Source: Amycolatopsis sp. WQ 127309 (GTDB lineage: Bacteria; Actinomycetota; Actinomycetes; Mycobacteriales; Pseudonocardiaceae). Taken from it: a stretch of DNA of 64,000 nt. Every line of letters starts with the position of its first letter. Position 1 is the stretch's first letter. A model generated the notes under the pieces. The model searched no databases and was not told the origin of the DNA. It was given only the letters and a program-made list of their open reading frames with translations. The stretch lies in contig NZ_CP095481.1 in assembly GCF_023023025.1 (NCBI RefSeq), positions 7,949,001-8,013,000 of the forward strand, read 5' to 3'. The translations under genes and the position numbers were made by a program. Shown in pieces: positions 33,839-47,647 of the stretch.

Positions 33839-33892
33839 CCACCACGAATTCGTGGTGGGTTGTTGACGGAACGGGATGAACGCGCTTAAGTA
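33839..33892 (+). promoter_or_regulatory. 20-bp perfect palindrome adjoining the promoter of the lipid synthase operon
   Basis: CCACCACGAATTCGTGGTGG (33839-33858) is a perfect palindrome. Directly after it TTGACG (33863-33868) and TTAAGT (33886-33891), 17 bases apart, form a promoter that would start near 33898, leaving a 41-base leader to the ATG at 33939. A site just upstream of the -35 is typical for an activator. The CGTGGT word also occurs in the inverted pair at 33712 and 33771. Confidence 0.6.
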
Positions 33893-33938: not shown

Positions 33939-36900
33939 ATGCGTGTCTCGAAAGACGTTCGCGAACCGGCCGTGCCGGTCGTCGCCGTCTCGCCGCTCGC
34001 GTGGCCTTCCGCGCGGGGCGTCGCGGCCGCCGCACGCGGTGGCGGGCTCGGCGTGCTCGACCTCACCGGCCCGGGCGACACCGCGGCGGAAGAGCTCGCC
34101 CTCCTGGCGGAATGGGGGATCCCGACGTTCGGGGTCCGGCTCACGCGCCTGGCCGCGGGCACGGAGCTGCCCGAAGCCGCCGGCACCGTCCTGCTGACCG
34201 AGGACTCGCCGTGCACCGCGCGCGACTTCCCGGGACGACGGGTGCTGGCCGAGGTCACGAGCCGCGCGTCGGCCGCGCGGGCGGTCGACGGCGGTGCTCA
34301 CGGCTTGATCGCCCGCGGTCACGAGTGCGGCGGCCGGACGGGTGAGCTGAGCACTTTCGTGTTACTCCAGGCCTTGCTCGCCGACGAGACCGTCCCGGTC
34401 TGGGCTGCGGGCGGGATCGGCCCGCACACCGCGGCCGCCGCCATCGCGGGCGGCGCGGCCGGCGTCGTCGTCGACACCCAGCTCGCGCTCCTGCCGGAGG
34501 CGGAACTGCCGTCGGCCCTCACCACCGCCGTCACCGGCCTCGACGGCTCCGAGACCGTGGTCGTCGACGGCGTCCGCGTGCTGTCCCGCCGCGGGACGGG
34601 CACGACGTCGATCGAGGCCGGCCAGGACGTCTTCCTCGCCACCCGCTTCCGCGACCGCTGGGGCACGGTGACCGCGGCCGTGCGCGGCCTCGGCGACGCG
34701 ATCGGCGACGCCCTGCGCGCGGACGTCACCGTGCTCGGCCCGGGCACCGCCGGCAGCCGCGCGTTCGGCACCACCCAGCCGGTCGCGCAGGGCCCGATGA
34801 CCCGGGTGAGCGACCAGGCCGCCTTCGCCGCCGAGGTCGCCGCGGGCGGGGCGCTGCCGTTCATCGCGCTCGCGCTGTCCGGCCCGGAGCAGACCCGCGA
34901 AGTCCTGGAACGCACGCGCGAAGCCGTCGGCGGCGCGCCGTGGGGTGTCGGCGTGCTCGGCTTCGCCGCCGACGACGTCAAAACCGCGCAGCTCGAGGTG
35001 ATCCGCGAGCTGCGGCCCACCCACGCGATCATCGCCGGCGGCCGCCCGGCCCAGGCTGCGGCCCTGGAAGACGCCGGCATCGCCACCTTCCTGCACGTGC
35101 CCTCGCCCGGCCTGCTGAAGCAGTTCCTCGAGGCCGGCGCCCGCAAGTTCGTCTTCGAAGGCTCGGAGTGCGGCGGCCACGTAGGCCCGCGCACCAGCTT
35201 CCCGCTCTGGGAGGCCCAGCTCGGTGTCCTCGCCGACTTCCTCGCCACCACCCCGGACGCCGCCGCGGACCTGCAGATCCTGTTCGCGGGCGGGATCCAC
35301 GACGAACGCTCGGCCGCGATGGTCGCCGCCCTCGCCGCGCCGGTCGCCGCCCGCGGCGCCGCCATCGGCGTCCTCATGGGCACCGCCTACCTCTTCACCC
35401 ACGAAGCCGTCGACGCCGGCGCGGTGCTCCCGCTCTTCCAGCGGCAGCTCCTAGCGGCCCAGCACACCGACCTGCTCGAAACCGCGCCCGGCCACGCCAC
35501 CCGCTGCGTCCGCAGCCCGTTCACCGAGGAGTACGCCGCGCTCAAGGCGGACCTCGCCGAGCAGGGCGTGCCCAGCCGCGACGCGTGGGAGCAGCTGGAG
35601 ACCCTCAACGTCGGCCGCCTCCGCCTGGCCAGCAAGGGCATCGAGCGCGTCGGCGCCGACCTGCGGCCGGTCGGCGAAGACCGGCAGCTCACCGAAGGCA
35701 TGTTCATGGCGGGCGAGGTCGCCGTGCTGCGCTCGGCCGTCACCACGATCGCCGAGCTGCACACCGCCGTCGGCGAAGGCGCGAACGCCTTCCTGCGCGA
35801 GCGGGCCGCCGCGGCCGGCGTCACGACGCCGGAGCCGCTCGCCCCCGAACCCCTGGACATCGCGATCGTCGGGATGGCCTGCATGTTCCCGCAGGCCCCG
35901 GACCTGGCGTCGTTCTGGGCGAACGTCCTGGCCGGCGCGGACGCCGTCACCGAAGTCCCGCCGCAGCGCTGGGACACCACCCTCTACTTCGACCCCGACG
36001 GCCAAGGCGAGAAGACGCCGTCACGCTGGGGCGGCTTCCTGCCCGAGATCGGGTTCGACCCGCTGCGCTACGGCATCCCGCCGTCGTCGCTGGCCAGCAT
36101 CGAGCCGGTCCAGCTGCTGGCGCTCGAAGCGGCGCACCGCGCACTCGCCGACGCGGGTTACGGCGAGCGCGCCTTCGACCGGACGCGGACGTCCGTCGTG
36201 TTCGGCGCCGAGGCGGGCAGCGACCTGTCCAACGCGATGAGCCTGCGGACCGTCCTGCCGTCCTACGTGGGCGAACTGCCGCCCGGGCTCGACGAGCGGC
36301 TGCCCAAGATCACCGAGGATTCGTTCCCCGGCGTGCTCGCTAACGTCATCGCCGGCCGGATCGCCAACCGGCTCGACCTCGGCGGCGCGAACTACACCGT
36401 CGACGCGGCCTGCGCGTCCTCGCTCACCGCCGTCGACGTCGCCTGCAAGGAACTGACCGCCGGCACCAGCGACCTCGTCCTGTGCGGTGGCGCGGACCTG
36501 CACAACGGCATCAACGACTACCTGCTCTTCGCCTCCGCGCACGCCCTTTCGCCGACCGGGCGCTCGGCGACGTTCGACAGCGCGGCCGACGGCATCGCGC
36601 TCGGCGAAGGCGTCGGCTGCGTCGCGCTGAAGCGGCTCGCCGACGCCGAACGCGACGGCGACCGCGTGTACGCCGTGATCAAGGGCGTCGGCGCGGCGTC
36701 CGACGGGCGCGCGCTCGGGCTGACGGCACCCCGGCCCGAAGGCCAGCACACCGCGCTGACCCGCGCCTACCGCAACGCCGGCGTCTCACCCGCGCAGGTC
36801 GGGCTGGTCGAGGCGCACGGCACCGGCACCGTCGTCGGCGACCGGACCGAGCTGAGCACGCTGACCAAGGTCTTCACCGAGGCCGGAGCCGCGCCGGGTG

Positions 36901-39900
36901 GCTGCACGATCGGCTCGGTGAAGTCCCAGATCGGCCACACCAAGTGCGCCGCGGGCCTCGCCGGGCTGATCAAGACGGCGATGGCGCTGCACACCGGCGT
37001 CAAACCGCCGACCCTGCACGTGACCGCGCCGAACCCGGCGTGGGACGCCGCGACCAGCCCGTTCGTGTTCCAGTCGGCGCCGCAGCCGTGGAGCGCGCCG
37101 GCCGCCGAGCGGATCGCCGGGGTCAGCGCGTTCGGCTTCGGGGGCACCAACTTCCACGTCGTGCTCGGCGCGCACGACGGCGTCCCGCCCGCCCAGGTCG
37201 GCGACGAGTGGCCGGCCGAGCTGTTCACCTTCGCCACGGACGCGGCGGCGCGGGACCTGCTGGCGCTCGCCGAGGACGTCCCGGCAGGCAAGCAGCCGTG
37301 GCGCCTGCGGGACCTCGCGCTGAGCGCGTCACGCCGGTCCGAGGCCGCCGGTCGGGTCCGGCTCGCCGTCGTCGCGTCCACAGTGGACGAACTGACCGGG
37401 TTGCTGCGTCAGGCGTTGGCCGGCGCCGACGCGCCGGGCGTGTACCGCGTCGGGGACTTCGAGCCGGGCGAGGTCGCGGTGCTGTTCCCCGGCCAGGGGA
37501 GCCAGCGGCCGGGGATGTTCGCCGAGCTGTTCGTCACCTTCCCCGAGCTGCAGCGCTACCTGCGGCTCGACCCGGCCACCGCCGCGACGGTGTTCGGCCC
37601 GGCCGTGTTCGGCGAACCGGAGCGGCAGGCCTTCGCCGACCGGGTGACCGACACCCGCGTCGCCCAGCCCGCGCTCGGCCTCGCCGGGCTGGCCGCGTTC
37701 CGGCTGCTGACCCGCGCCGGCGTCCGGCCCGCGATGGCCGGCGGCCACAGCTACGGCGAGCTGATCGCCCTGGCCGCGGCCGGCGCCTTCACGCCGGAAG
37801 CACTGCTGCACGCCAGCCACGCCCGGGCCGAAGCGATCCTCGGCGCGATCCCGGCGTCGGACCCGGGCGCGATGGCCGCGGTCTCGGCGTCCGCCGCCGA
37901 CGTCGGCGAGGTCGTCGCCGACCTGGGCACCGTGGTCCTGGCGAACCACAACTCGCCGACGCAGACGGTGATCTCCGGGCCGGCCGCCGACATCGAGACG
38001 GCGGTCGGGCTGCTGCGGGCCGCCGGGCTCGGCGCGAAACGGCTCACGGTCGCGTGCGCGTTCCACAGCCCGCTGGTCGCGGCCGCGGGGGAGACGTTCG
38101 GCCGGGTCCTCGGCGCGATCGGCGTCGTCCGGCCGGCCATCCCGGTGTACGGCAACCGCACCGCGGCGCCCTACCCGGACGACGTCCGCGGCGAACTGGC
38201 CGCGCAGATCGGCTCACCGGTCCGGTTCGTCGAGCAGATCGAAGCGATGTACGCGGCGGGCGCCCGGGTGTTCGTCGAGGCGGGTCCCGGCGCGGTGCTG
38301 GCGAAGCAGATCACGGCGATCCTCGGTGACCGTCCACACCGGACGGTCGGGTTCGAGCAGCGCGGCAGCCGCGGCGTACCGGGGTTCCTCACCGCACTCG
38401 CGCAACTGGCGGTGGCCGGCGTGCCGATCGAGACGGGCTGGCTGTTCCGCGGCCGCGACGCCGTCGACGCGGCGTCCGTCCCACGCCCGAAGCGTCCGGG
38501 GTGGACGGTGGACGGCCACCTGCTCCGCACCGCGGACGGCACGATCCCGGCGGGCGCCCTCCGGCCCGCGGAACGCCTCCCGCAGATCCTGACCTCGGCC
38601 GCCGCCTCGGTGACGGCGGGTACGTCGGACGCGATGGTGGCGGACTTCCTGCGCACGAGTCGCGAGATGATCGCAGCCCAGCGCGACGTACTGCTGGGCT
38701 ACTTCGGCACCGACATCCCGGCAGCCGTCGCCCCGGTCGTCGTCACGCCGGTGGTCGAGGTGCTGCCCGTCCCGGTCTCGGCGTCGGTGCGGTCCGTTTT
38801 GGACACGGTGATCGAGGTGATCGGGGAGCGGACGGGGTATCCGGTGGACATGATCGAGCCGGATCTCGATCTGGAAGCCGACTTGAGCGTGGATTCGATC
38901 AAGCGGGCGGAGATCGCGGGTGAGCTGGCTACTCGGCTGGGGTTGGACGCGGGTGAGGACATCGAGACGTTCGCCAAGGCGCGGACCGCGGCGTCGATCG
39001 CCGAGCTGATCGGGACTGGGGTGCCGCAGCCTGTCGCGCCGGTCGTTGTCGTGGCCGCGCAGTCCGTTTTGGACACGGTGATCGAGGTGATCGGCGAGCG
39101 GACGGGATATCCGGTGGACATGATCGAGCCGGATCTCGATCTGGAAGCCGACTTGAGCGTGGATTCGATCAAGCGGGCGGAGATCGCCGGGGAGCTGGCG
39201 ACCCGGCTGGGCCTCGACGCGGGTGAGGACATCGAGACGTTCGCCAAGGCGCGGACCGCGGCGTCGATCGCCGAGCTGATCGGGGCTGGGGTGCCGCAGC
39301 CTGTCGCGCCGGTCGTTGTCGTGGCTGAGCGGTCCGTTTTGGACACCGTCATCGACGTGATCGCCGACCGAACCGGCTATCCCGGGGACATGATCGAGCC
39401 CGACCTCGATCTCGAAGCCGACCTGAGCATCGACTCCATCAAACGCGCCGAGATCGCCGGGGAACTGGCCACGCGCCTCGGCCTCGACCCGGACGGTGAC
39501 GTCGAGGAACTCGCCAAGGCCCGCACCGCCGCCGCGATCGCCGCACTCGTGGGTGGGGCGGCCGAGCCGAAGCCGGTCCTGGTCGGTGGCGCAGCCGACC
39601 AGCCGCGAACCCAGCCCGCGGCCGAGCCGAGCACCGGGCCGCAGCTCGCCATCCCGGCCGGGCCGCAGCCGGTCATCGTCGCGCCGAAGCGCCTGGTCAT
39701 GGCCCAGTTCGACCTCGCGCCCGCGGCCACTCCCGACGTCACCGGCCGGACGTTCCTGATCCTCGGCATCGGCCCGCTGGCCGAGGCTGTCCGGACCAGG
39801 CTGACCGATCTGGGCGCCACGGCCGAGATCGCCGACGCCGTCCGCCCGGGCTTCGACGGCGTCATCGACCTGCCCGACGCCGACGCCGGGCCGGTGTTGC

Positions 39901-41072
39901 CCGGCGCCTTCCCCCGCTACCGTGACGCCCTCGCCGGGAACCCTGCCTGGCTGCTCACCGCCGGTCCCGGCGAAGGGCTCCGCGGCTTCTACCGCAGCGT
40001 CTCGCGCGAGTACCCGGACACGATCGCCCGGGTCGTCGAGCAGCCGCCGGGCACGAATGTCGCCGAACGAGCCGAAAAGATCGTCGAAGAGTTGTCCACT
40101 GTGGACCGCGAACCCGTCGTGCTCCGGGACGGTGAGAAGCGCAGCGGGCTCCGGATGACCGAACAGGGCCTCGGCCTGCTCGGCAGCAGCGGTGCGGGGC
40201 CGGCGGGCGACGGCACCGCCGAAGCGGCCGCGGCCGGGCTGGACCGCGAGTCGGTCGTGCTGCTCGTCGGCGGGGCCAAGGGCATCACCGCCCGGTTCGC
40301 CGCGACGCTCGCCGCCGCATCCCGCTGCCGTCTTGAACTGGTCGGCCGGACGCCCGTGCCGTCCACCGAGGACGACTACCCGCAGGCGACGGACGCCAAT
40401 GAACTGCGCGCCGCCCTGATCGCGAGCGGCCTGAAGAACCCGGCCGAGATCGAACGCGAGGTGCGCCGCATCCTCGGCGAACGCGAAGTCCGGGGCACTC
40501 TGGAACGGCTCCAAGCGCTCGGCAGCCCGGTGCGCTACCAGTCCGTCGACATGCTCGACGCCGAGGCCGTGCACCGCGCGGTCAAGGAGATCCACGCCGA
40601 GCACGGCCGCCTCGACGGCATCGTCTACGCGGCCGGCGTCATCGAGGACAAGCTCGTCGCCGAGAAGACACCCGAGTCGTTCACCCGTGTTTACGGGACC
40701 AAAGTGGACGGGGCCAAGACGCTCCTCGAAGCGACGGCGGACCTGCCCGACGAGCCGACGTTCGTCGTCCTCTTCGGCAGCATCGCCGCGGCGCTCGGCA
40801 ACCGCGGCCAGTCGGACTACGCCGCCGCCAACGACGCCCTGGAATCCCTCGGCCGCCGCTGGCCCGCCGGCCGCGCGGTGACCGTCCACTGGGGACCGTG
40901 GGCGCCGACCGGCACCAACGACGGCATGGTCACGCCGGCGCTGATGCGGGAGTACGCCCGCCGCGGCATCGAGCTGATCGACCCGGAGGAAGGCACCCTC
41001 GGCCTGCTGCGCGAACTGGCCTGGGGCCGCCCGGAGACCGCCGCCGTCGTCCACACCGCCTCGGGCTGGTGA
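33939..41072 (+). CDS. Iterative type I PKS / Pfa-like lipid synthase: ER-ER-KS-AT-ACP3-KR
   Basis: A 2,377-residue multidomain synthase. In order: tandem FabK/PfaD-like flavin domains (about 10-215 and 265-600; motifs ARGHECGGRTG at Cys130 and EGSECGGHVG at Cys411), a ketosynthase (about 640-1080; Cys825 in DAACASSL, His in EAHGTGT and IGHTKCA), an acyltransferase (about 1180-1500; Ser1271 in GGHSYGE), three ACPs with phosphopantetheine sites Ser1653, Ser1743 and Ser1833 (VDSIKR), and a ketoreductase (about 2105-2377; GGAKGITARFA, FGSIAAALGNRGQSDYAAAN). GGAKGIT-type KR plus tandem LEADLS-x-DSIKRAEI ACPs are hallmarks of PfaA-type polyunsaturated fatty acid and enediyne synthases. The dehydratase is encoded by the next gene. 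The ATG at 33939 follows GGGAG and lies after the promoter; an ATG at 33876 lies inside it. Product unknown. Confidence 0.9.
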   Translation: MRVSKDVREPAVPVVAVSPLAWPSARGVAAAARGGGLGVLDLTGPGDTAAEELALLAEWGIPTFGVRLTRLAAGTELPEAAGTVLLTEDSPCTARDFPGRRVLAEVTSRASAARAVDGGAHGLIARGHECGGRTGELSTFVLLQALLADETVPVWAAGGIGPHTAAAAIAGGAAGVVVDTQLALLPEAELPSALTTAVTGLDGSETVVVDGVRVLSRRGTGTTSIEAGQDVFLATRFRDRWGTVTAAVRGLGDAIGDALRADVTVLGPGTAGSRAFGTTQPVAQGPMTRVSDQAAFAAEVAAGGALPFIALALSGPEQTREVLERTREAVGGAPWGVGVLGFAADDVKTAQLEVIRELRPTHAIIAGGRPAQAAALEDAGIATFLHVPSPGLLKQFLEAGARKFVFEGSECGGHVGPRTSFPLWEAQLGVLADFLATTPDAAADLQILFAGGIHDERSAAMVAALAAPVAARGAAIGVLMGTAYLFTHEAVDAGAVLPLFQRQLLAAQHTDLLETAPGHATRCVRSPFTEEYAALKADLAEQGVPSRDAWEQLETLNVGRLRLASKGIERVGADLRPVGEDRQLTEGMFMAGEVAVLRSAVTTIAELHTAVGEGANAFLRERAAAAGVTTPEPLAPEPLDIAIVGMACMFPQAPDLASFWANVLAGADAVTEVPPQRWDTTLYFDPDGQGEKTPSRWGGFLPEIGFDPLRYGIPPSSLASIEPVQLLALEAAHRALADAGYGERAFDRTRTSVVFGAEAGSDLSNAMSLRTVLPSYVGELPPGLDERLPKITEDSFPGVLANVIAGRIANRLDLGGANYTVDAACASSLTAVDVACKELTAGTSDLVLCGGADLHNGINDYLLFASAHALSPTGRSATFDSAADGIALGEGVGCVALKRLADAERDGDRVYAVIKGVGAASDGRALGLTAPRPEGQHTALTRAYRNAGVSPAQVGLVEAHGTGTVVGDRTELSTLTKVFTEAGAAPGGCTIGSVKSQIGHTKCAAGLAGLIKTAMALHTGVKPPTLHVTAPNPAWDAATSPFVFQSAPQPWSAPAAERIAGVSAFGFGGTNFHVVLGAHDGVPPAQVGDEWPAELFTFATDAAARDLLALAEDVPAGKQPWRLRDLALSASRRSEAAGRVRLAVVASTVDELTGLLRQALAGADAPGVYRVGDFEPGEVAVLFPGQGSQRPGMFAELFVTFPELQRYLRLDPATAATVFGPAVFGEPERQAFADRVTDTRVAQPALGLAGLAAFRLLTRAGVRPAMAGGHSYGELIALAAAGAFTPEALLHASHARAEAILGAIPASDPGAMAAVSASAADVGEVVADLGTVVLANHNSPTQTVISGPAADIETAVGLLRAAGLGAKRLTVACAFHSPLVAAAGETFGRVLGAIGVVRPAIPVYGNRTAAPYPDDVRGELAAQIGSPVRFVEQIEAMYAAGARVFVEAGPGAVLAKQITAILGDRPHRTVGFEQRGSRGVPGFLTALAQLAVAGVPIETGWLFRGRDAVDAASVPRPKRPGWTVDGHLLRTADGTIPAGALRPAERLPQILTSAAASVTAGTSDAMVADFLRTSREMIAAQRDVLLGYFGTDIPAAVAPVVVTPVVEVLPVPVSASVRSVLDTVIEVIGERTGYPVDMIEPDLDLEADLSVDSIKRAEIAGELATRLGLDAGEDIETFAKARTAASIAELIGTGVPQPVAPVVVVAAQSVLDTVIEVIGERTGYPVDMIEPDLDLEADLSVDSIKRAEIAGELATRLGLDAGEDIETFAKARTAASIAELIGAGVPQPVAPVVVVAERSVLDTVIDVIADRTGYPGDMIEPDLDLEADLSIDSIKRAEIAGELATRLGLDPDGDVEELAKARTAAAIAALVGGAAEPKPVLVGGAADQPRTQPAAEPSTGPQLAIPAGPQPVIVAPKRLVMAQFDLAPAATPDVTGRTFLILGIGPLAEAVRTRLTDLGATAEIADAVRPGFDGVIDLPDADAGPVLPGAFPRYRDALAGNPAWLLTAGPGEGLRGFYRSVSREYPDTIARVVEQPPGTNVAERAEKIVEELSTVDREPVVLRDGEKRSGLRMTEQGLGLLGSSGAGPAGDGTAEAAAAGLDRESVVLLVGGAKGITARFAATLAAASRCRLELVGRTPVPSTEDDYPQATDANELRAALIASGLKNPAEIEREVRRILGEREVRGTLERLQALGSPVRYQSVDMLDAEAVHRAVKEIHAEHGRLDGIVYAAGVIEDKLVAEKTPESFTRVYGTKVDGAKTLLEATADLPDEPTFVVLFGSIAAALGNRGQSDYAAANDALESLGRRWPAGRAVTVHWGPWAPTGTNDGMVTPALMREYARRGIELIDPEEGTLGLLRELAWGRPETAAVVHTASGW
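38793..39560 (+). repeat. Triplicated ACP coding unit, exact 270-bp period
   Basis: Units begin at 38793, 39063 and 39333, each with TCCGTTTTGGAC. Units 1 and 2 differ at only about 15 of 270 positions by eye, including silent sites, while unit 3 has diverged and uses the GC-rich codons of the rest of the gene. This indicates recent duplication or gene conversion between units 1 and 2. Confidence 0.9.
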
Positions 41073-41077
41073 CGCGC

Positions 41078-44000
41078 ATGCCGGATCCCGTCGCGATCGT
41101 CGGCATGTCGGTGCTGCTGCCCGGCGCGCCGGACCTCGACACGTACTGGCGCAACCTCGTCGGCGGTGTCGACGCGATCACCGAGGTGCCGCCGGAGAAG
41201 TGGGATAGCGCGCACTACGCCCCGGACGCCGAGCGGCGCGCCGACCGGATCTACTGCCGGCGCGGCGGGTTCGTCGACGAACTGGCCGAAGTGGACGTCA
41301 CGGGGTTCGGGATCATGCCGAACTCGATCCCCGCGACCGAGCCCGACCAGCTGATCGCGCTGCGGGTCGCGGCCCAGGCCCTGGCCGACGCCGGTGGCCC
41401 GGACCGGCTGCCCGCCGACCGCTCCCGCGTCGGCGTCATCCTCGGCCGCGGCGGCTACCTGACCCCGGGCCTGGTCCGGCTCGACCAGCGCGTCCGCACC
41501 GCGAGCCAGCTCGTGCGCACCCTCGGCGAGCTGCTGCCGGAGCTGGACGCCGATCGCCTCGACGCCGTCCGGCAGGCCTTCACCGACCAGCTCGGCCCGG
41601 AGGCACCGGAGTCGGCGATCGGGCTCGTGCCCAACCTGGCCGCGTCCCGGCTCGCCAACCGCCTCGACCTGCGCGGCCCGGCGTACACCGTGGACGCCGC
41701 GTGCGCGTCCTCGCTGATCGCGGTCGACCACGCTGTGCGCGAACTCGCGTCCGGCCGCTGCGACGTCGTGCTCGCCGGCGGTGTGCACCACTGCCACGAC
41801 ATCACGTTCTGGAGCGTGTTCACCCAGCTCGGCGCGCTGTCGCCGTCCGAACGCATCCGGCCGTTCCACCGCGACGCCGACGGTGTGCTGATCGGCGAAG
41901 GCACCGGCGTCGTCGTGCTCAAGCGGCTCGTCGACGCCCAGCGCGACGGCGACCGCGTCTACGCCGTGGTCACCGGCACCGGCGTCGCCTCCGACGGGCG
42001 GACCGCCAGCCTGGCCAACCCGGACTCCGGCGGCCAGGTCCGTGCCGTCCGCCAGGCCTGGGCCGCGGCCGGGCTCGACCCGCGGGACCCGGACTCGCTG
42101 GGGCTGCTCGAAGCGCACGGCACGGCGACCCCGGCCGGCGACGCGGCCGAGCTCACCACGCTCGCCGAGGTGTTCGGCCAGGCCGGGAGCGCGGTGCTCG
42201 GCTCGGTGAAGTCGATGATCGGCCACACGATGCCCGCCGCCGGGGTGGCCGGGCTGGTCAAGGCCGCCCTCGCTGTCCACCACGGCGTCCTGCTGCCGAC
42301 GCTGCACTGCGACGACCCGAACCCCGCCCTCGACAAGACGCGCTTCTCCACTTTGGACACCGCGCGCCCCTGGAACGCGGCGGTGCGCCGCGCCGGGGTC
42401 AACGCGTTCGGGTTCGGCGGGATCAACGCCCACGTCGTGCTGGAGCAGGCTCCGGACCGGGCCGCCCCGGTCGTCGTGCGCGAGGCCGAGCGCGTGCTGC
42501 GGCTTGCCGCACCGACCGTCGAGGCGCTGCGTGACGTGCTTTCCGGACCGGATCGCTCGGTGCTCACCGCGCCGGAAGGCACCGGGCCCGTGCGGCTCGG
42601 CATCGTCGACCCGACCGAGAAGCGCCTGGCCTTGGCCCGCAAGGCCGTCGGCCGGGGACGGCCGTGGCGCGGGCGCAACGACGTCTGGTTCGCCGACAAG
42701 CCGCTGCTCGGCCCGGGCGGCGGCAAGCTCGCGTTCGTCTTCCCCGGCCTCGAAGCCGAACTGGCCCTGAACTGCGGAGACGTCGCCCGCCACTTCGGCC
42801 TCCCGTGGCAGCACTCCGACGCCGCGGTCGGCGACGTCGGCCGCCAGGGCGCCGCCGTGTTCGAGCTGGGCCGGCTCCTGGAAGCCGCCCTGCGGCGGAT
42901 GGGCGTGACGCCGGACGCCGTCGCCGGGCACAGCCTCGGCGAATGGACCGCGATGGCCGCGGCCGGGATGCACGCGACGGACGAGGTCGACGCCTTCCTC
43001 GCCGGGTTCGACCCGGACAGCCTGGTCGTGCCGGGCCTGGCGTTCGCCGCGATCGGCGCGCCCGCCACGCAGGTGCTGGCCGAGCTGGCCGGCCGCGACG
43101 ACGTCGTGCTGTCCCACGACAACTCGCCGAACCAGGCGATGGTCTGCGGGCCCGCCGCGGCCGTCGACGCCCTGGTCGGCCGCTTCCGGAGCGCGGGGGT
43201 CGTGTCCCAGGTCCTGCCGTTCCGCTCCGGCTTCCACACCCCGATGCTGCGGCCCTACCTCGGCCCGATCCGCGCGGCGGCCGACGGCTTCACGCTGCAC
43301 CCGCCGCGGGTGCCGATCTGGTCGGCGACGACGGTGTCGGAGTACCCGGCCGCCGAGGCCGACGTCCGCGCGCTGTTCGTGCGGCACCTGCTCGAACCGG
43401 TCCGGTTCCGGCCGCTCGCCGAGACGCTGCACGCGGCCGGGTTCCGGGCGTTCGTGCAGGTCGGCGCCGGTCAGCTCGGCTCGCTCATCGGCGACACCCT
43501 GCACGGCGAGGACCACCTCGTCGTCGCGGCGCACTCGCCGCACCGGCCCGGGCTCGCGCAGCTGCTGCGCGTCGCCACGGCGTTGTGGGCCGAAGGCGCG
43601 TCCCTCGACGGCACGGCGCTGCCGGGCCAGACCCGCGCCGCGACCCGCAAGGCCGTCAAGCTGGACCTCGGCGGGCACGTCATCACCCTCGACGACCGGA
43701 CCCGCGCGCAGGTCGGCGCCCGGCTGGCCCAGGGGTCCACTGTGGACGTCCTGGCCGGGAAAGGGCCCATCGCGGCCGAGTTCGCGGCACTGCTTCAGGA
43801 CACGGCGAACCTGGCGTCCACTGTGCTCGGTGGGCGCAAGACCACCACCACGTCGTCACCAATCGAGCTGCGGACCACTTTGGACGTCTCGGTCGACACG
43901 ATGCCGTACCTGCTCGACCACTGCTTCTTCAAGCAGCCACCGCGGGCCGACCCGGGTGACCGCTGGCCGGTCGTGCCCGCCACCACGGTGATCGACCACC

Positions 44001-45379
44001 TGATGGGCTTCGCCGAGCAGGCGGCGCCCGGCCGCCGCGCGGTCGCGGTGCACGACGTCCGGCTGAACCAGTGGATCACCGCGATCCCGGCGGTCACCGT
44101 GCCGGTGCACGTCGTGCCCCGAGGTCATGACCGCGTGTTCGCCGCACTGGGCAGCTACTCCCAGGCCGTCGTCGAGCTGGCCGGGTCCTATCCGGCCGGC
44201 GGCCCCGCGCCGTGGCGCTTCCCGGCGTCGGCCGAGGAAGTCCCCGAGACCCAGGCCCGCGAGCTGTACGACGACCGCTGGATGTTCCACGGCCCGCGCT
44301 TCCAGGGCGTCACCGAGCTGACCGCCGTCGGCGACCGGCACGTCCGCGCCGTGCTCACCACCCCGGCCGCGCCCGGCGCACTGCTGGACAACGTCGGCCA
44401 GGTGCTCGGCTACTGGATCATGTCCCGGCTGCCGGAACGCACCACCGTCTTCCCGGTCGCGATGCGCGAGATCCGGTTCCACGGCCCGCACCCGGCGCCG
44501 GGGGAGCGGCTGGAGTGCCTGGTCAAGATCACGTCACTGACCGGCGAGTTCCTCGACGCCGACATGCAGCTCGTCCACAACGGGCAGGTCTGGGCCGAGT
44601 TCACCGGCTGGCGCGACCGCCGGTTCGACAGCAACCCGGAGATCCGCCAGGCCGACCGGACGCCCGAGCGTTCGACGCTGTCGAAGGAACAACCCGGGGG
44701 CTGGGCGCTGGTGCACGAACAGTGGCCGGACCTGGCGACGCGCGAGCTGATCATGCGCAACTACCTCGCCGGACCGGACCGCGGCGCCTACGACCGGCGC
44801 CCGCCGCGCGGCCGCCGCCAGTGGCTGCTCGGCCGGATCGCGGCGAAGGACGCCGTCCGCCAGTTCCTCTGGGCGCACGGCGAACCCGAGATGTTCCCGG
44901 CCGAGCTGAGCATCGGCAACGACGACGCGGGCCGCCCCCACGCGACCGGCGCGTACGGCCGGGAGCTGCCGGAGGTGACGATCTCGGTGGCCCACCGCGC
45001 CGAGGCCGGCGTGGCGATCGCGCGGTTCGGCCCGTGCGGGATCGACGTCGAAGAGGTCGCGCCGCGCGCGGAGTCTACTGTGGACGCGGCGTTCGGGCCG
45101 GCCGAACGGGCGCTGTTCGCGGGCCAGGAGGGCGATCCGGACGTCTGGTTCGCCCGGTTCTGGACCGCGAAGGAAGCCGTCGCGAAACTACGCGGCACCG
45201 GGCTGCGGGGGGAGCCCCGCGACTTCGAAGTCGTCGCCGCTTCCCCGGAAGCGCTGACCGTCCGGGTGGCCGGGCACGACCACCACGTCCGCTGCACCGA
45301 GACCGCGAACCTGCCGGGCGCACCGCCGCGCCGGTACGTCGTGGCCTGGACCGAGGAGACGAAGGAGACTGCGGAATGA
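41078..45379 (+). CDS. Pfa-like lipid synthase second subunit: KS-AT-DH-phosphopantetheinyl transferase
   Basis: A 1,433-residue partner synthase. It starts with a ketosynthase (about 1-450; Cys209 in DAACASSLIAVD, His in EAHGTATPAG and IGHTMPAAG, so it has all three catalytic residues and is not a decarboxylating chain-length factor). An acyltransferase follows (about 545-880; Ser619 in AGHSLGEW), then a dehydratase-type double hot dog (about 925-1220; His948 in YLLDHCFF and Asp in LLDNVGQVLGYW), then a phosphopantetheinyl transferase (about 1240-1433; GIDVEE with Asp1323, WTAKEAVAKLRGTGL). The fused transferase could load the ACPs of both proteins and of the next gene. ATG at 41078; a GTG at 41069 overlapping the previous stop is an alternative. 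Its stop overlaps the ACP gene (ATGA). Confidence 0.88.
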   Translation: MPDPVAIVGMSVLLPGAPDLDTYWRNLVGGVDAITEVPPEKWDSAHYAPDAERRADRIYCRRGGFVDELAEVDVTGFGIMPNSIPATEPDQLIALRVAAQALADAGGPDRLPADRSRVGVILGRGGYLTPGLVRLDQRVRTASQLVRTLGELLPELDADRLDAVRQAFTDQLGPEAPESAIGLVPNLAASRLANRLDLRGPAYTVDAACASSLIAVDHAVRELASGRCDVVLAGGVHHCHDITFWSVFTQLGALSPSERIRPFHRDADGVLIGEGTGVVVLKRLVDAQRDGDRVYAVVTGTGVASDGRTASLANPDSGGQVRAVRQAWAAAGLDPRDPDSLGLLEAHGTATPAGDAAELTTLAEVFGQAGSAVLGSVKSMIGHTMPAAGVAGLVKAALAVHHGVLLPTLHCDDPNPALDKTRFSTLDTARPWNAAVRRAGVNAFGFGGINAHVVLEQAPDRAAPVVVREAERVLRLAAPTVEALRDVLSGPDRSVLTAPEGTGPVRLGIVDPTEKRLALARKAVGRGRPWRGRNDVWFADKPLLGPGGGKLAFVFPGLEAELALNCGDVARHFGLPWQHSDAAVGDVGRQGAAVFELGRLLEAALRRMGVTPDAVAGHSLGEWTAMAAAGMHATDEVDAFLAGFDPDSLVVPGLAFAAIGAPATQVLAELAGRDDVVLSHDNSPNQAMVCGPAAAVDALVGRFRSAGVVSQVLPFRSGFHTPMLRPYLGPIRAAADGFTLHPPRVPIWSATTVSEYPAAEADVRALFVRHLLEPVRFRPLAETLHAAGFRAFVQVGAGQLGSLIGDTLHGEDHLVVAAHSPHRPGLAQLLRVATALWAEGASLDGTALPGQTRAATRKAVKLDLGGHVITLDDRTRAQVGARLAQGSTVDVLAGKGPIAAEFAALLQDTANLASTVLGGRKTTTTSSPIELRTTLDVSVDTMPYLLDHCFFKQPPRADPGDRWPVVPATTVIDHLMGFAEQAAPGRRAVAVHDVRLNQWITAIPAVTVPVHVVPRGHDRVFAALGSYSQAVVELAGSYPAGGPAPWRFPASAEEVPETQARELYDDRWMFHGPRFQGVTELTAVGDRHVRAVLTTPAAPGALLDNVGQVLGYWIMSRLPERTTVFPVAMREIRFHGPHPAPGERLECLVKITSLTGEFLDADMQLVHNGQVWAEFTGWRDRRFDSNPEIRQADRTPERSTLSKEQPGGWALVHEQWPDLATRELIMRNYLAGPDRGAYDRRPPRGRRQWLLGRIAAKDAVRQFLWAHGEPEMFPAELSIGNDDAGRPHATGAYGRELPEVTISVAHRAEAGVAIARFGPCGIDVEEVAPRAESTVDAAFGPAERALFAGQEGDPDVWFARFWTAKEAVAKLRGTGLRGEPRDFEVVAASPEALTVRVAGHDHHVRCTETANLPGAPPRRYVVAWTEETKETAE

Positions 45380-45681
45380 GCATCGAGACGACGGCCACCG
45401 GCGAGGCGGCGGTGCTCGCTCAGCTCGGCGGAATGCTGCGTGAGCTGCTCGAGGAGTACGGCCTCGACGACGCCGAGATCACCATGGACACCACGTTCCA
45501 CGACGACCTCGAGCTGGAGAGCGTCGACCTCGTGGCGCTGTCCGGGCAGCTGCGCGAGCACTACGGCGAGCGCGTCAACTTCGCGACGTTCATCGCCGAG
45601 CGCGACCTCGACGAGATCATCGCGCTGACCGTCGGCGAGCTGGTCCGGTACATCGTCGCCTCGCTGCGGGACCGGCCGTGA
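45376..45681 (+). CDS. Free-standing acyl carrier protein
   Basis: A 101-residue carrier protein. The phosphopantetheine attachment site is Ser49 in DDLELESVDLVAL, preceded by an acidic helix (LRELLEEYGLDDAEI) and followed by ERVNFATFIAERDLDEIIAL. It differs clearly from the three ACPs in the synthase, so it may accept the finished chain or carry a starter unit for the hydrolase or glycosyltransferase that follow. It overlaps both neighbours by 4 bp, making it part of the coupled operon. Confidence 0.9.
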   Translation: MSIETTATGEAAVLAQLGGMLRELLEEYGLDDAEITMDTTFHDDLELESVDLVALSGQLREHYGERVNFATFIAERDLDEIIALTVGELVRYIVASLRDRP

Positions 45682-46484
45682 GCCGGATCCGGGCGGGCGA
45701 GCTGGACGTCCACGTCCAGCGCTTGACCCCCGACGTCCCGCTCGACGGCGACGCGCCGATCGTGGTGTGCGTCCACGGTCTGCTCACCGACAGCCTCGCC
45801 AGCTACTACTTCACCCTCGGGCCCGCCTTCGCCGAACGCGGCCTCGACGTGCTGATGTACGACCTGCGCGGGCACGGCCGCACGACCCGGCCGGCGAGCG
45901 GCTACCACCTCGAATCGTTCGTCGTCGACCTGGTCGACGTCCTCGACGCGCTCGGGATCACCCGGCCGGTGCACGTGATCGGCAACTCGTTCGGCGGCTC
46001 GGTGGCCTTCGGGCTGGCCGCCGCCCGGCCCGACCGCGTCGCCAGCGTCATCGCCATCGAGGCCGAGCCGCCGACGGCGGCGTGGACGCGGCACATGGCC
46101 GACGGCCTCGCCGACGCGAAGACCCGCCTCGCCATCGACGAGGTGATCGGCTGGATCAAGGACAACCACGGCGCGCACACCGCGCGGCTGTCCAAGGCGG
46201 CCAACCGGATCCTCCAGACGACCACGATGGCCGACGACATCCCGCGCAGCGCGACCATCAACGCGGACCTCTCGGACGTCCACTGTCCGGTGTTCGCCCT
46301 CTTCGGCGGCGATTCGGGGCTGGCGGCGCAGGTGCCGCACTTCGAGGAGCACCTCGACCACTGCCGCACCGTCGTGCTGCCCGACCAGGGGCACTCGGTG
46401 CTGGTCGAGCGGACCGCCGAGACCATCGAGCTGATCTTCGACTGGGTCCGCGACGTCTCCCGGCTCCCGGCCCGGGTGCGGTAG
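45678..46484 (+). CDS. Alpha/beta hydrolase (probable chain-release enzyme)
   Basis: A 268-residue alpha/beta hydrolase with an intact triad: nucleophile Ser104 in GNSFGGS, Asp near residue 212 (FGGDSG) and His239 in PDQGHSV; the oxyanion loop is CVHGLLTDS. There is no signal peptide. In a synthase operon lacking a thioesterase domain it is the natural candidate to release or transfer the acyl chain, but other esterase activities are possible. GTG start overlapping the ACP stop; its own stop overlaps the glycosyltransferase start by one base. Confidence 0.85.
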   Translation: MSRIRAGELDVHVQRLTPDVPLDGDAPIVVCVHGLLTDSLASYYFTLGPAFAERGLDVLMYDLRGHGRTTRPASGYHLESFVVDLVDVLDALGITRPVHVIGNSFGGSVAFGLAAARPDRVASVIAIEAEPPTAAWTRHMADGLADAKTRLAIDEVIGWIKDNHGAHTARLSKAANRILQTTTMADDIPRSATINADLSDVHCPVFALFGGDSGLAAQVPHFEEHLDHCRTVVLPDQGHSVLVERTAETIELIFDWVRDVSRLPARVR

Positions 46485-47647
46485 TGGCCCGGTACCTGTT
46501 CGTCGTCCCGCCGCTGGTCGGGCACGTCAACCCGGCCGCCGGGGTGGCCGCCGAGCTCACCGCGCGCGGCCACGAGGTCGCCTGGGCCGGGCACGACGAG
46601 CTGCTGTGGCACCTGGCCGGCCCGGACGCGCTCGTGTTCTCGTGCGCGCTGCCGCCGGACGCGCCGGAGCGCCCGCCCGAGCTGAAGGGGCCCGCCGCGC
46701 TGCGGTTCCTCTGGCAGGACTTCCTCGTCCCGCTGGCCGACGCGATGGCGCCCGGGGTCGCCGCGGCCATCGACGCTTTCGGACCGCACGTGGTCGTCGC
46801 CGACCAGCAGGCCCTCGCCGGCGGCCTGCTCGCCGACGCGCGCGGCCTGCCGTGGGTCACCTCCGCGACGACGTCGGCCGAGCTGGTCGACCCGCTCGCG
46901 GGCATGCCGAAGGTCGCGGACTGGGTGGCGGAACTGCTCGACGGCCTGCGCGCGCGGATCGGCGGCGGATCGGCGGATCCCCGGTTCTCACCGCACGGCG
47001 TGCTCGCCTTCACCACCCGCGAGCTGCTCGGCGCGGTCGCGCTGCCACCGAACGTCCGGCTGGTCGGGCCGTCCATCTCCGGCCGGCCGTCCACAACGGA
47101 CTTCCCGTGGGAGTGGCTCGACCCGCCGCGGCCTACGGTGCTCGTCTCGCTCGGCACCGCGAACACCGACGCGGGAACGGGATTCCTCACGTCCACAGTG
47201 GACGCCTTCGCCGGGCGGGAAGCCCGGGCCGTCGTCGTCGACCCGGGCGGGGTGCTCGGCGCCGTCCCGCCGAACGTCCTGGTGCGCCCGCGTGTCCCGC
47301 AGCTGCCGCTGCTCGCGCACGTCGACGCCGTCGTGTGCCACGCGGGGCACAACACCGTCTGCGAGACGCTCTGGCACGGCAAGCCGCTGGTCGTGGCGCC
47401 GATCCGCGACGACCAGCCGATCGTGGCCGCCCAGGTGGTCGCGGCCGGCGCGGGCGTCCGCCTGCGGTTCGGCCGCGCGGACGCCGGCCGCGTCGGCGCG
47501 GCGGTCGACGAGGTGCTGACCGAGCCGTCGTACCGGCGGGCCGCGGAGACGCTGTCGGCGTCCTTCCACGCCGCGGGCGGCAGCCCGGCCGCGGCGGGAC
47601 ACCTGGAACAGCTGGCGCTGGAGAGCCTGGCGCACCTGCGGCCCTGA
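46484..47647 (+). CDS. UGT/MGT-type glycosyltransferase (GT1)
   Basis: A 387-residue GT-B enzyme. The N-terminal acceptor domain opens VARYLFVVPPLVGHVNPAAGVAAEL, a GT1 signature. The C-terminal donor domain has VLVSLGTANTDA and the nucleotide-sugar motif VCHAGHNTVCETLWHGKP followed by VVAPIRDDQPIVA. Such enzymes glycosylate polyketides, sterols and carotenoid or lipid alcohols. As the last gene of the coupled operon it implies a glycosylated product. GTG at 46484 overlaps the preceding TAG; no separate ribosome site is visible. Confidence 0.9.
   Translation: MARYLFVVPPLVGHVNPAAGVAAELTARGHEVAWAGHDELLWHLAGPDALVFSCALPPDAPERPPELKGPAALRFLWQDFLVPLADAMAPGVAAAIDAFGPHVVVADQQALAGGLLADARGLPWVTSATTSAELVDPLAGMPKVADWVAELLDGLRARIGGGSADPRFSPHGVLAFTTRELLGAVALPPNVRLVGPSISGRPSTTDFPWEWLDPPRPTVLVSLGTANTDAGTGFLTSTVDAFAGREARAVVVDPGGVLGAVPPNVLVRPRVPQLPLLAHVDAVVCHAGHNTVCETLWHGKPLVVAPIRDDQPIVAAQVVAAGAGVRLRFGRADAGRVGAAVDEVLTEPSYRRAAETLSASFHAAGGSPAAAGHLEQLALESLAHLRP

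Follow-up and report, generated by a model that had tools for sequence, protein, structure and literature searches.

What is made by a row of five overlapping genes for two multidomain synthases, a free carrier protein, a hydrolase and a glycosyltransferase? The question is raised by a cassette at positions 33939–47647 of a 64,000-nucleotide stretch of Amycolatopsis sp. WQ 127309 (the window, below), which forms positions 7949001–8013000 of a single-contig genome of 11.13 Mb. An initial annotation, made from the letters of the window, had described the cassette as an unusual, self-contained factory for a reduced or partly unsaturated lipid chain that is released and glycosylated. The domain content makes it probable, in our judgement, that the cassette builds one long, mostly reduced 3-hydroxyacyl chain, releases it and attaches a sugar, giving a glycolipid; the product would be a long-chain sugar-lipid, likely one not yet identified.

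The five genes lie on the plus strand and each overlaps the next, end to start: by GTGA between genes 1 and 2 (41069–41072), ATGA between genes 2 and 3 (45376–45379), GTGA between genes 3 and 4 (45678–45681) and TAGTG between genes 4 and 5 (46482–46486). In gene 1, Pfam finds the nitronate monooxygenase-type reductase domain (NMO) in two stretches, a ketosynthase (KS), an acyltransferase (AT), three PP-binding acyl carrier domains (ACP) and a ketoreductase (KR); gene 2 matches KS, AT, the dehydratase PS-DH and the phosphopantetheinyl transferase (PPTase) family ACPS. The joined genes and their domain orders are thus as initially annotated, and the description as self-contained holds, with a PPTase, carrier, hydrolase and family 1 glycosyltransferase (GT1) of the cassette's own. 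The closest named proteins are those of Amycolatopsis sp. NBC_01286 (97% identity in gene 2 and 98% in the KS-AT part of gene 1). The gene-1 start at 33939 is preferred over the longest frame, from 33876, because two near-identical public proteins start there with MRVSKDV, GGGAG lies immediately upstream, and several relatives have a methionine in the same alignment column.

The ancestry of the synthases was addressed with a tree of 77 KS rows, midpoint-rooted for drawing only. The first KS of the cassette (KS1) falls in a clade (support 100/98) that joins a Rhodobacteraceae synthase (98/86), whose branch is long and whose place is unsure, then the ArsA-like proteins of Beijerinckia and Methylosinus (99/92), and then the PfaA-type KS (98/88). 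The PKSE-like rows and the modular KS are not part of this branch. The phylogenetic check proposed with the initial annotation places KS1 with the PfaA/ArsA-like group and so does not refute that annotation. The KS2 clade (100/100) is long-branched and has no supported sister among PfaC or modular KS. Two PfaA references are secure. The PKSE-like rows, of no known product, owe their name to architecture (L145) or to length together with similarity (L152). The tree leaves out the second, chain-length factor (CLF) KS of three loci (L144, L155, L156), two loci below a 300-residue filter (L003, L007) and one with no KS frame (L157). With the PfaA model TIGR02813, gene 1 scores 967.1 bits, below the cut-off of 1010.1, and the reference PfaA pair scores 2170 and 2081; in the Amycolatopsis genome KS1 reaches 649 bits, KS2 386 and the best other place 349. 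An enediyne or modular polyketide synthase (PKS) origin is rejected on the tree and these scores.

Relatives of the cassette were sought in one genome per species; of 518 confirmed relatives, the 80 with the best gene-2 match were taken as loci; 20 further loci bring the number to 100 (L041 and L123, like L043 and L126, share contigs). Motif counts for gene 1 rest on the 97 of 101 frames, window included, that are not cut by the locus end.

The "ER-ER" reading of gene 1, two enoyl reductases (ER) in tandem, is right as to the two NMO domains, but two working enzymes are not supported. The catalytic histidine of the first domain is lost in 31 of 32 aligned sequences, including that of the window, and is likewise missing from the first NMO domain of the Beijerinckia ArsA-like protein; by its motifs this domain is a degenerate pseudoER, predicted to be inactive. 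The second domain carries ECGGH in all 92 gene-1 frames that could be followed, a fairer count than the 32/32 of the alignment, whose members were picked for ECGGH. The remaining five frames comprise two loci that match only the KS of gene 2 (L070, L075) and three in which the frame broke off after 10–30 residues through a script artefact (L049, L086, L131). A PfaD-type reductase, as the initial annotation had it, was rejected: no PfaD-family match appears even at an E value of 10, and a PfaD control scores 608 bits. By profile and structure model the cassette reductase is FabK-like, not PfaD.

In gene 2 the active-site cysteine motif of KS2 is present in all 100 untruncated frames, the window's among them; KS2 is thus not a chain-length factor. 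A single dehydratase (DH) match is found, in PS-DH, and the Pfam scan of the cassette proteins gave no FabA-like DH/isomerase. The absence of a chain-length factor and of a second DH, as stated in the initial annotation, is borne out, and so is that of a desaturase or enediyne accessory gene, neither of which occurs among the 10 neighbour proteins scanned. Since there is one PKS-type DH and no FabA-like match, a mostly saturated chain appears more likely than the partly unsaturated one also allowed for at first. Of the PPTase motifs, P1a is found in 99 of 101 frames (with a short, permissive pattern), P1b' in 93 and P0 in three; the window's gene 2 is without P0. The AFH motif of the gene-1 AT is taken to indicate a malonyl-type enzyme.

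The three tandem ACPs that had been annotated are present in the window, as a 270-bp unit in 2.8 copies with 88% matches, but the number is not a fixed trait of the family. Two copies are found in Amycolatopsis sp. NBC_01286 and three in another protein that is 98% identical, so copy number changes fast. By the motif DS[IL]KR, three copies are seen in the window alone among the 97 gene-1 frames, two in 28, one in 61 and none in seven. The triple ACP thus arose by a recent tandem duplication of 270 bp, and near-identical strains differ in the number of copies.

In the hydrolase, position 104 is serine in 39 and cysteine in two of 41 sequences; His239 and Glu128 are invariant, and the usual site of the acid (212) is variable. 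The nucleophile helix is followed by a strand and this, directly, by Glu128, which may be a catalytic acid displaced from the canonical site. The model (pLDDT 96) matches esterases, lactonases and C-C hydrolases with no clear favourite; no RhlA, a hydroxyacyl transferase, is among the 50 matches listed in either structure list, which excludes nothing. The GT1 resembles sugar transferases of the YjiC/OleI type. A Methyltransf_23 protein follows it in 18 of the 80 loci and none of the 20 further ones; 17 of 19 such genes start between −300 and +50 bases from the GT1 stop. An ABC exporter follows in 10/80 and 1/20. These counts of methyltransferases and exporters come from a crude GC-based gene finder and are perhaps low. 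Such additions are expected of a tailored, exported product. The window has neither after GT1, and an MFS gene lies further downstream.

From these parts the following pathway may be proposed. The built-in PPTase would activate the ACPs; KS1 and KS2, together with the malonyl-AT, KR and DH and the only working ER, would run repeated cycles of full reduction, as ArsA does for its long chains; the pseudoER would serve the working ER as a structural partner. A final step using KR only would leave the 3-hydroxyl. The completed chain would then travel on the free ACP to GT1, which would use UDP-glucose, its presumed donor, so that the product is glucosylated, and to the hydrolase, which would cut or re-esterify the thioester. 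Release and glycosylation are steps that we infer. Several points weigh against this reading: the closest FabK and esterase matches leave the functions of the reductase and the hydrolase unfixed, the sequence gives neither acceptor nor donor of GT1, the long-branched KS2 clade is without a characterised relative in the tree, the 3-hydroxyl is a chemical deduction, and no acyl-CoA ligase or sugar gene stands within the five genes. One relative without the hydrolase (L110) suggests that release may not require it, and ranking the 80 loci by gene-2 match favours close relatives.

Among known systems, the cassette fits the Type M secondary-lipid synthase of Shulse and Allen (2011), a kind described with a product then unknown and listed for Streptomyces avermitilis and Actinosynnema (PMC3098273, in the part available). 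The assignment rests on S. avermitilis proteins, strain not shown, that match the synthase genes at 69% and 72–73%, and on a window PPTase that has motifs resembling P1a and P1b' but lacks P0. Actinosynnema pretiosum (L071) has all five genes, the listed species being A. mirum; the Frankia and Renibacterium members of the type were not met. The ACP, hydrolase and GT1 are not discussed in that part of PMC3098273.

The likeness to the Ars (Type P) system was assessed with Beijerinckia only, whose plasmid NC_010578 served as a stand-in for Azotobacter. The plasmid encodes a 2674-aa protein with NMO in two stretches, KS, AT, two PP-binding domains and KR, two proteins annotated as KAS-III and a 629-aa DH-PPTase. 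It shares with the cassette the pseudoER-ER-KS-AT-ACP-KR order and the KS clade, and its DH-PPTase, a separate protein, aligns with the window's DH-PPTase tail at 27% identity over 78%. The proteins with KAS-III C-terminal domains we take to be type III PKSs (ArsB/ArsC homologues). The cassette differs in an extra KS-AT fused to its DH-PPTase; its ACP, hydrolase and GT1 stand where Beijerinckia has the two presumed type III PKSs, and the Beijerinckia glycosyltransferase belongs to another family, Glycos_transf_1. Neither the cassette's own five proteins nor the 10 neighbours that were scanned include a type III PKS. By its domains, the cassette looks like an ArsA/ArsD engine to which a KS-AT has been added and in which the type III PKSs have been replaced by ACP, hydrolase and GT1. 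In the parts of the sources available, Azotobacter ArsA makes the C23–C25 fatty acids of alkylresorcinols (PMC4824345), with a C22 example in PMC3098273. The latter source places Beijerinckia indica beside Azotobacter in Type P, although phenolic lipids have not been found in this species.

With the PfaA–E systems the cassette has in common the KS-AT-ACPn-KR core, and KS1 lies in a neighbouring clade; it differs in having no CLF, one DH, a tandem fused FabK-like ER, a fused PPTase and a PfaA score below the cut-off. Enediyne PKSE proteins have the layout KS-AT-ACP-KR-DH-PPT in one protein. They resemble the cassette in the C-terminal DH and PPTase, whereas the cassette's KS stand apart from PKSE-like rows, its domains are split over two proteins, and an ER is present. 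A later paper (PMC11004387, in the part available) lists the hglE-KS class for clusters of Amycolatopsis without naming a product, and one Sorangium cluster (pfa2/pfa3), of that class and another layout, is linked to maracen (PMC12800573, likewise in part). Among the papers listed from the literature searched, subscription journals lying outside its scope, no product assignment for the cassette was found.

The set of five genes recurs in many actinobacteria, which, with its fit to Type M, removes the grounds for calling it unusual. The 80 loci include Amycolatopsis, Streptomyces, Kribbella, Kitasatospora, Umezawaea, Actinosynnema, Actinophytocola, Crossiella, Allokutzneria, Hoyosella and Sciscionella. 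All five genes occur in order in 76 of them with gene 1 at 50% identity or more, and in 77 without that condition. Of the four exceptions, two hold 1.5–2.1 kb before gene 2 (L070, L075) and one ends just after the hydrolase (L117), so that they are not fully scorable; only in L110 (Streptomyces eurocidicus) is a hydrolase match lacking between ACP and GT1. Where the flank suffices, the ACP is present in 75/75, the hydrolase in 74/75 and GT1 in 75/75, against 8/73, 7/75 and 9/75 for the window's flanking genes (an upstream PLP enzyme, GNAT and MFS). The five genes form a unit with sharp edges.

Pairwise distances of the five parts, gene 1 being represented by KS1, show correlations of 0.75–0.91 over 70 of the 80 loci (nine were dropped by hand because the contig ended, genes were missing or matches were short, and one by the KS1 filter), a range that species history alone could give. 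Whole gene-1 matches gave only 0.31–0.41 for gene 1 (69 loci), against 0.77–0.90 with KS1 (70 loci); we attribute the low values to gene-1 matches being partial to differing extents, a presumed artefact.

Across the phylum, the tail of gene 2 is found at an E value of 1e-20 in 9 of 396 genomes, the own genome included, and within the genus 28 of 35 genomes have a gene-2 relative reaching at least residue 1316 of 1436. Amycolatopsis rifamycinica (L041) has all five genes, and close gene-1 relatives occur in A. mediterranei S699, A. balhimycina and S. avermitilis. A second five-gene set, with about 51% identity in gene 2, is seen at five of six further loci of the genus (L146–L150, in genomes G030, G008, G025, G005 and G022), beside a closer copy in the first four; the sixth (L154) ends inside gene 2. 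Only about 72–74 of 196 PPTase residues match in this second set, whose PPTase is probably dead, so that activation would come from elsewhere. What emerges is a conserved, self-contained pathway of glycolipid type, without known product, in many actinobacteria.

Other products have to be weighed against a long, mostly reduced glycolipid. One such product would be a polyunsaturated or polyene chain, made by the synthase pair in the manner of true Pfa synthases and then glycosylated. Such a product would suit the position of KS1, sister to the PfaA and ArsA-like groups, the gene-1 score just below the PfaA cut-off and the tandem ACPs, but we regard it as distinctly improbable: there is one PKS-type DH, no FabA-like DH/isomerase match and no CLF, the closest relatives are ArsA-like, a saturated-chain kind, and the working-ER motif is kept in every gene-1 frame that could be followed. 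The glycolipid might instead belong to the cell envelope or spore and not be a secreted bioactive. Envelope lipids are made by relatives of Type F, in heterocysts, and of Type P, in Azotobacter cysts, according to the available parts of PMC4824345 and PMC3098273, and the high frequency of gene-2 relatives within the genus agrees with such a role. The patchy occurrence across the phylum, the synthase on megaplasmids in two Streptomyces and the exporter adjoining in 10/80 loci point the other way, and we hold a structural or storage role to be somewhat unlikely.

A bolder proposal, drawn by analogy, is that the cassette family could supply the missing core pathway for cycloviracin, fattiviracin and macroviracin, antiviral glycolipids of the macrodiolide class; we consider this doubtful. 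The hydroxyls of cycloviracin stand at odd carbons. An ArsA-type synthase with a second KS-AT would programme long 3-hydroxy chains with spaced KR-only steps; GT1 would glucosylate the 3-hydroxyl of the very long hydroxy acid; the hydrolase, as a dimerising cyclase, would join two units via glucose O-6 into cycloviracin/fattiviracin-type rings; and, in those relatives that have a methyltransferase after GT1, this enzyme would make the O-methyl sugars. In the part of PMC4365757 available, cycloviracins and fattiviracins are actinobacterial long hydroxy acids (about C22–C33), linked to glucose and closed via glucose C6, the sugars of cycloviracin are methoxylated, and the producers listed are Streptomyces, Kibdelosporangium and Nocardia. 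That chemistry suggestively matches a long-chain synthase, GT1 and hydrolase, and the methoxylated sugars match the methyltransferase beside GT1, which the window itself lacks. The fit is one to compound chemistry and not to producer genomes; the extra sugars and the branched C18 chain of glucolipsin are unexplained, and the hydrolase matches are generic. Ring formation of this kind seems unlikely for the cassette. No gene cluster for cycloviracin, fattiviracin, glucolipsin or macroviracin was found in the literature searched, as far as its texts were available, and the cassette would offer this class a concrete gene candidate. For the long, mostly reduced glycolipid that we prefer, the known limits of the five genes, the nearest characterised kind (ArsA) and the pseudoER make a knock-out or heterologous test straightforward.

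Table. Features of the cassette and its upstream region, in window coordinates.
Feature	Coordinates	Strand	Evidence
Perfect 18-bp palindrome CACCACGAATTCGTGGTG, possible operator	33840–33857		sole one that long in the 64-kb window
Gene 1, pseudoER-ER-KS-AT-ACP3-KR, ArsA/PfaA-like synthase	33939–41072	+	Pfam, TIGR02813, start evidence
First NMO/FabK-like domain, ECGGR (catalytic His to Arg), predicted inactive	33978–34745	+	Pfam, motifs, alignment
Second NMO/FabK-like domain, ECGGH, predicted active FMN enoyl reductase	34743–35825	+	profile, model, motifs
KS1, Cys-His-His motifs intact	35856–37166	+	Pfam, motifs, tree
AT1, GHSYG and AFH motif	37482–38423	+	Pfam, motifs
Three tandem ACPs, DSIKR, 270-bp DNA repeat	38792–39543	+	Pfam, repeat analysis
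KR, GGAKGIT and YAAAN	40254–40904	+	Pfam, motifs
Gene 2, KS-AT-DH-PPTase	41069–45379	+	Pfam; DH-PPTase part 27% identical to Beijerinckia DH-PPTase
KS2, active-site Cys kept	41084–42448	+	Pfam, motif, tree
AT2, GHSLGE	42881–43468	+	Pfam, motif
DH (PS-DH); LLDH and DNVGQ motifs in and before the stretch	44228–44632	+	Pfam, motifs
PPTase domain match; P1a-like AGRP, P1b'-like ISVAH just upstream	45032–45340	+	Pfam, motifs
Gene 3, free ACP, LES serine	45376–45681	+	Pfam
Gene 4, alpha/beta-hydrolase; GNSFGG Ser104, Glu128, His239	45678–46484	+	Pfam, alignment, structure model
Gene 5, GT1 glycosyltransferase; HAGHNTVCE...RDDQ	46484–47647	+	Pfam, motif

The palindrome lies about 82 bp upstream of the gene-1 start, directly before a TTGACG hexamer, and is a possible candidate operator. 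As a conserved operator it was rejected, being poorly kept: a site with at most four mismatches is found in 5 of at most 100 loci, at scattered positions. The palindrome-like sites nearest the gene start, in L054, L086 and L120, have three mismatches in two cases and five in one.

Synthases of this family were also met on plasmids. The whole cassette with a methyltransferase (L141) is carried by a 0.87-Mb Streptomyces plasmid of the mobilizable type, NZ_CP108492.1, where IS3 and IS6 transposases lie nearby. The synthase genes are present on a second Streptomyces megaplasmid, NZ_CP108735.1. Plasmid pSC52_2 of Rhodobacteraceae SC52 (L142) carries a related alphaproteobacterial synthase, a further variant. 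Next to this synthase are a methyltransferase, a dioxygenase resembling TauD, and a protein that bears a PPTase and also matches AT and DH. Elsewhere in the Amycolatopsis genome, at about 11.053–11.060 Mb, lies an orphan 1957-aa KS-AT-KR-DH protein of PKSE-like layout (L145), and frames of similar length are present in several genomes of the genus.

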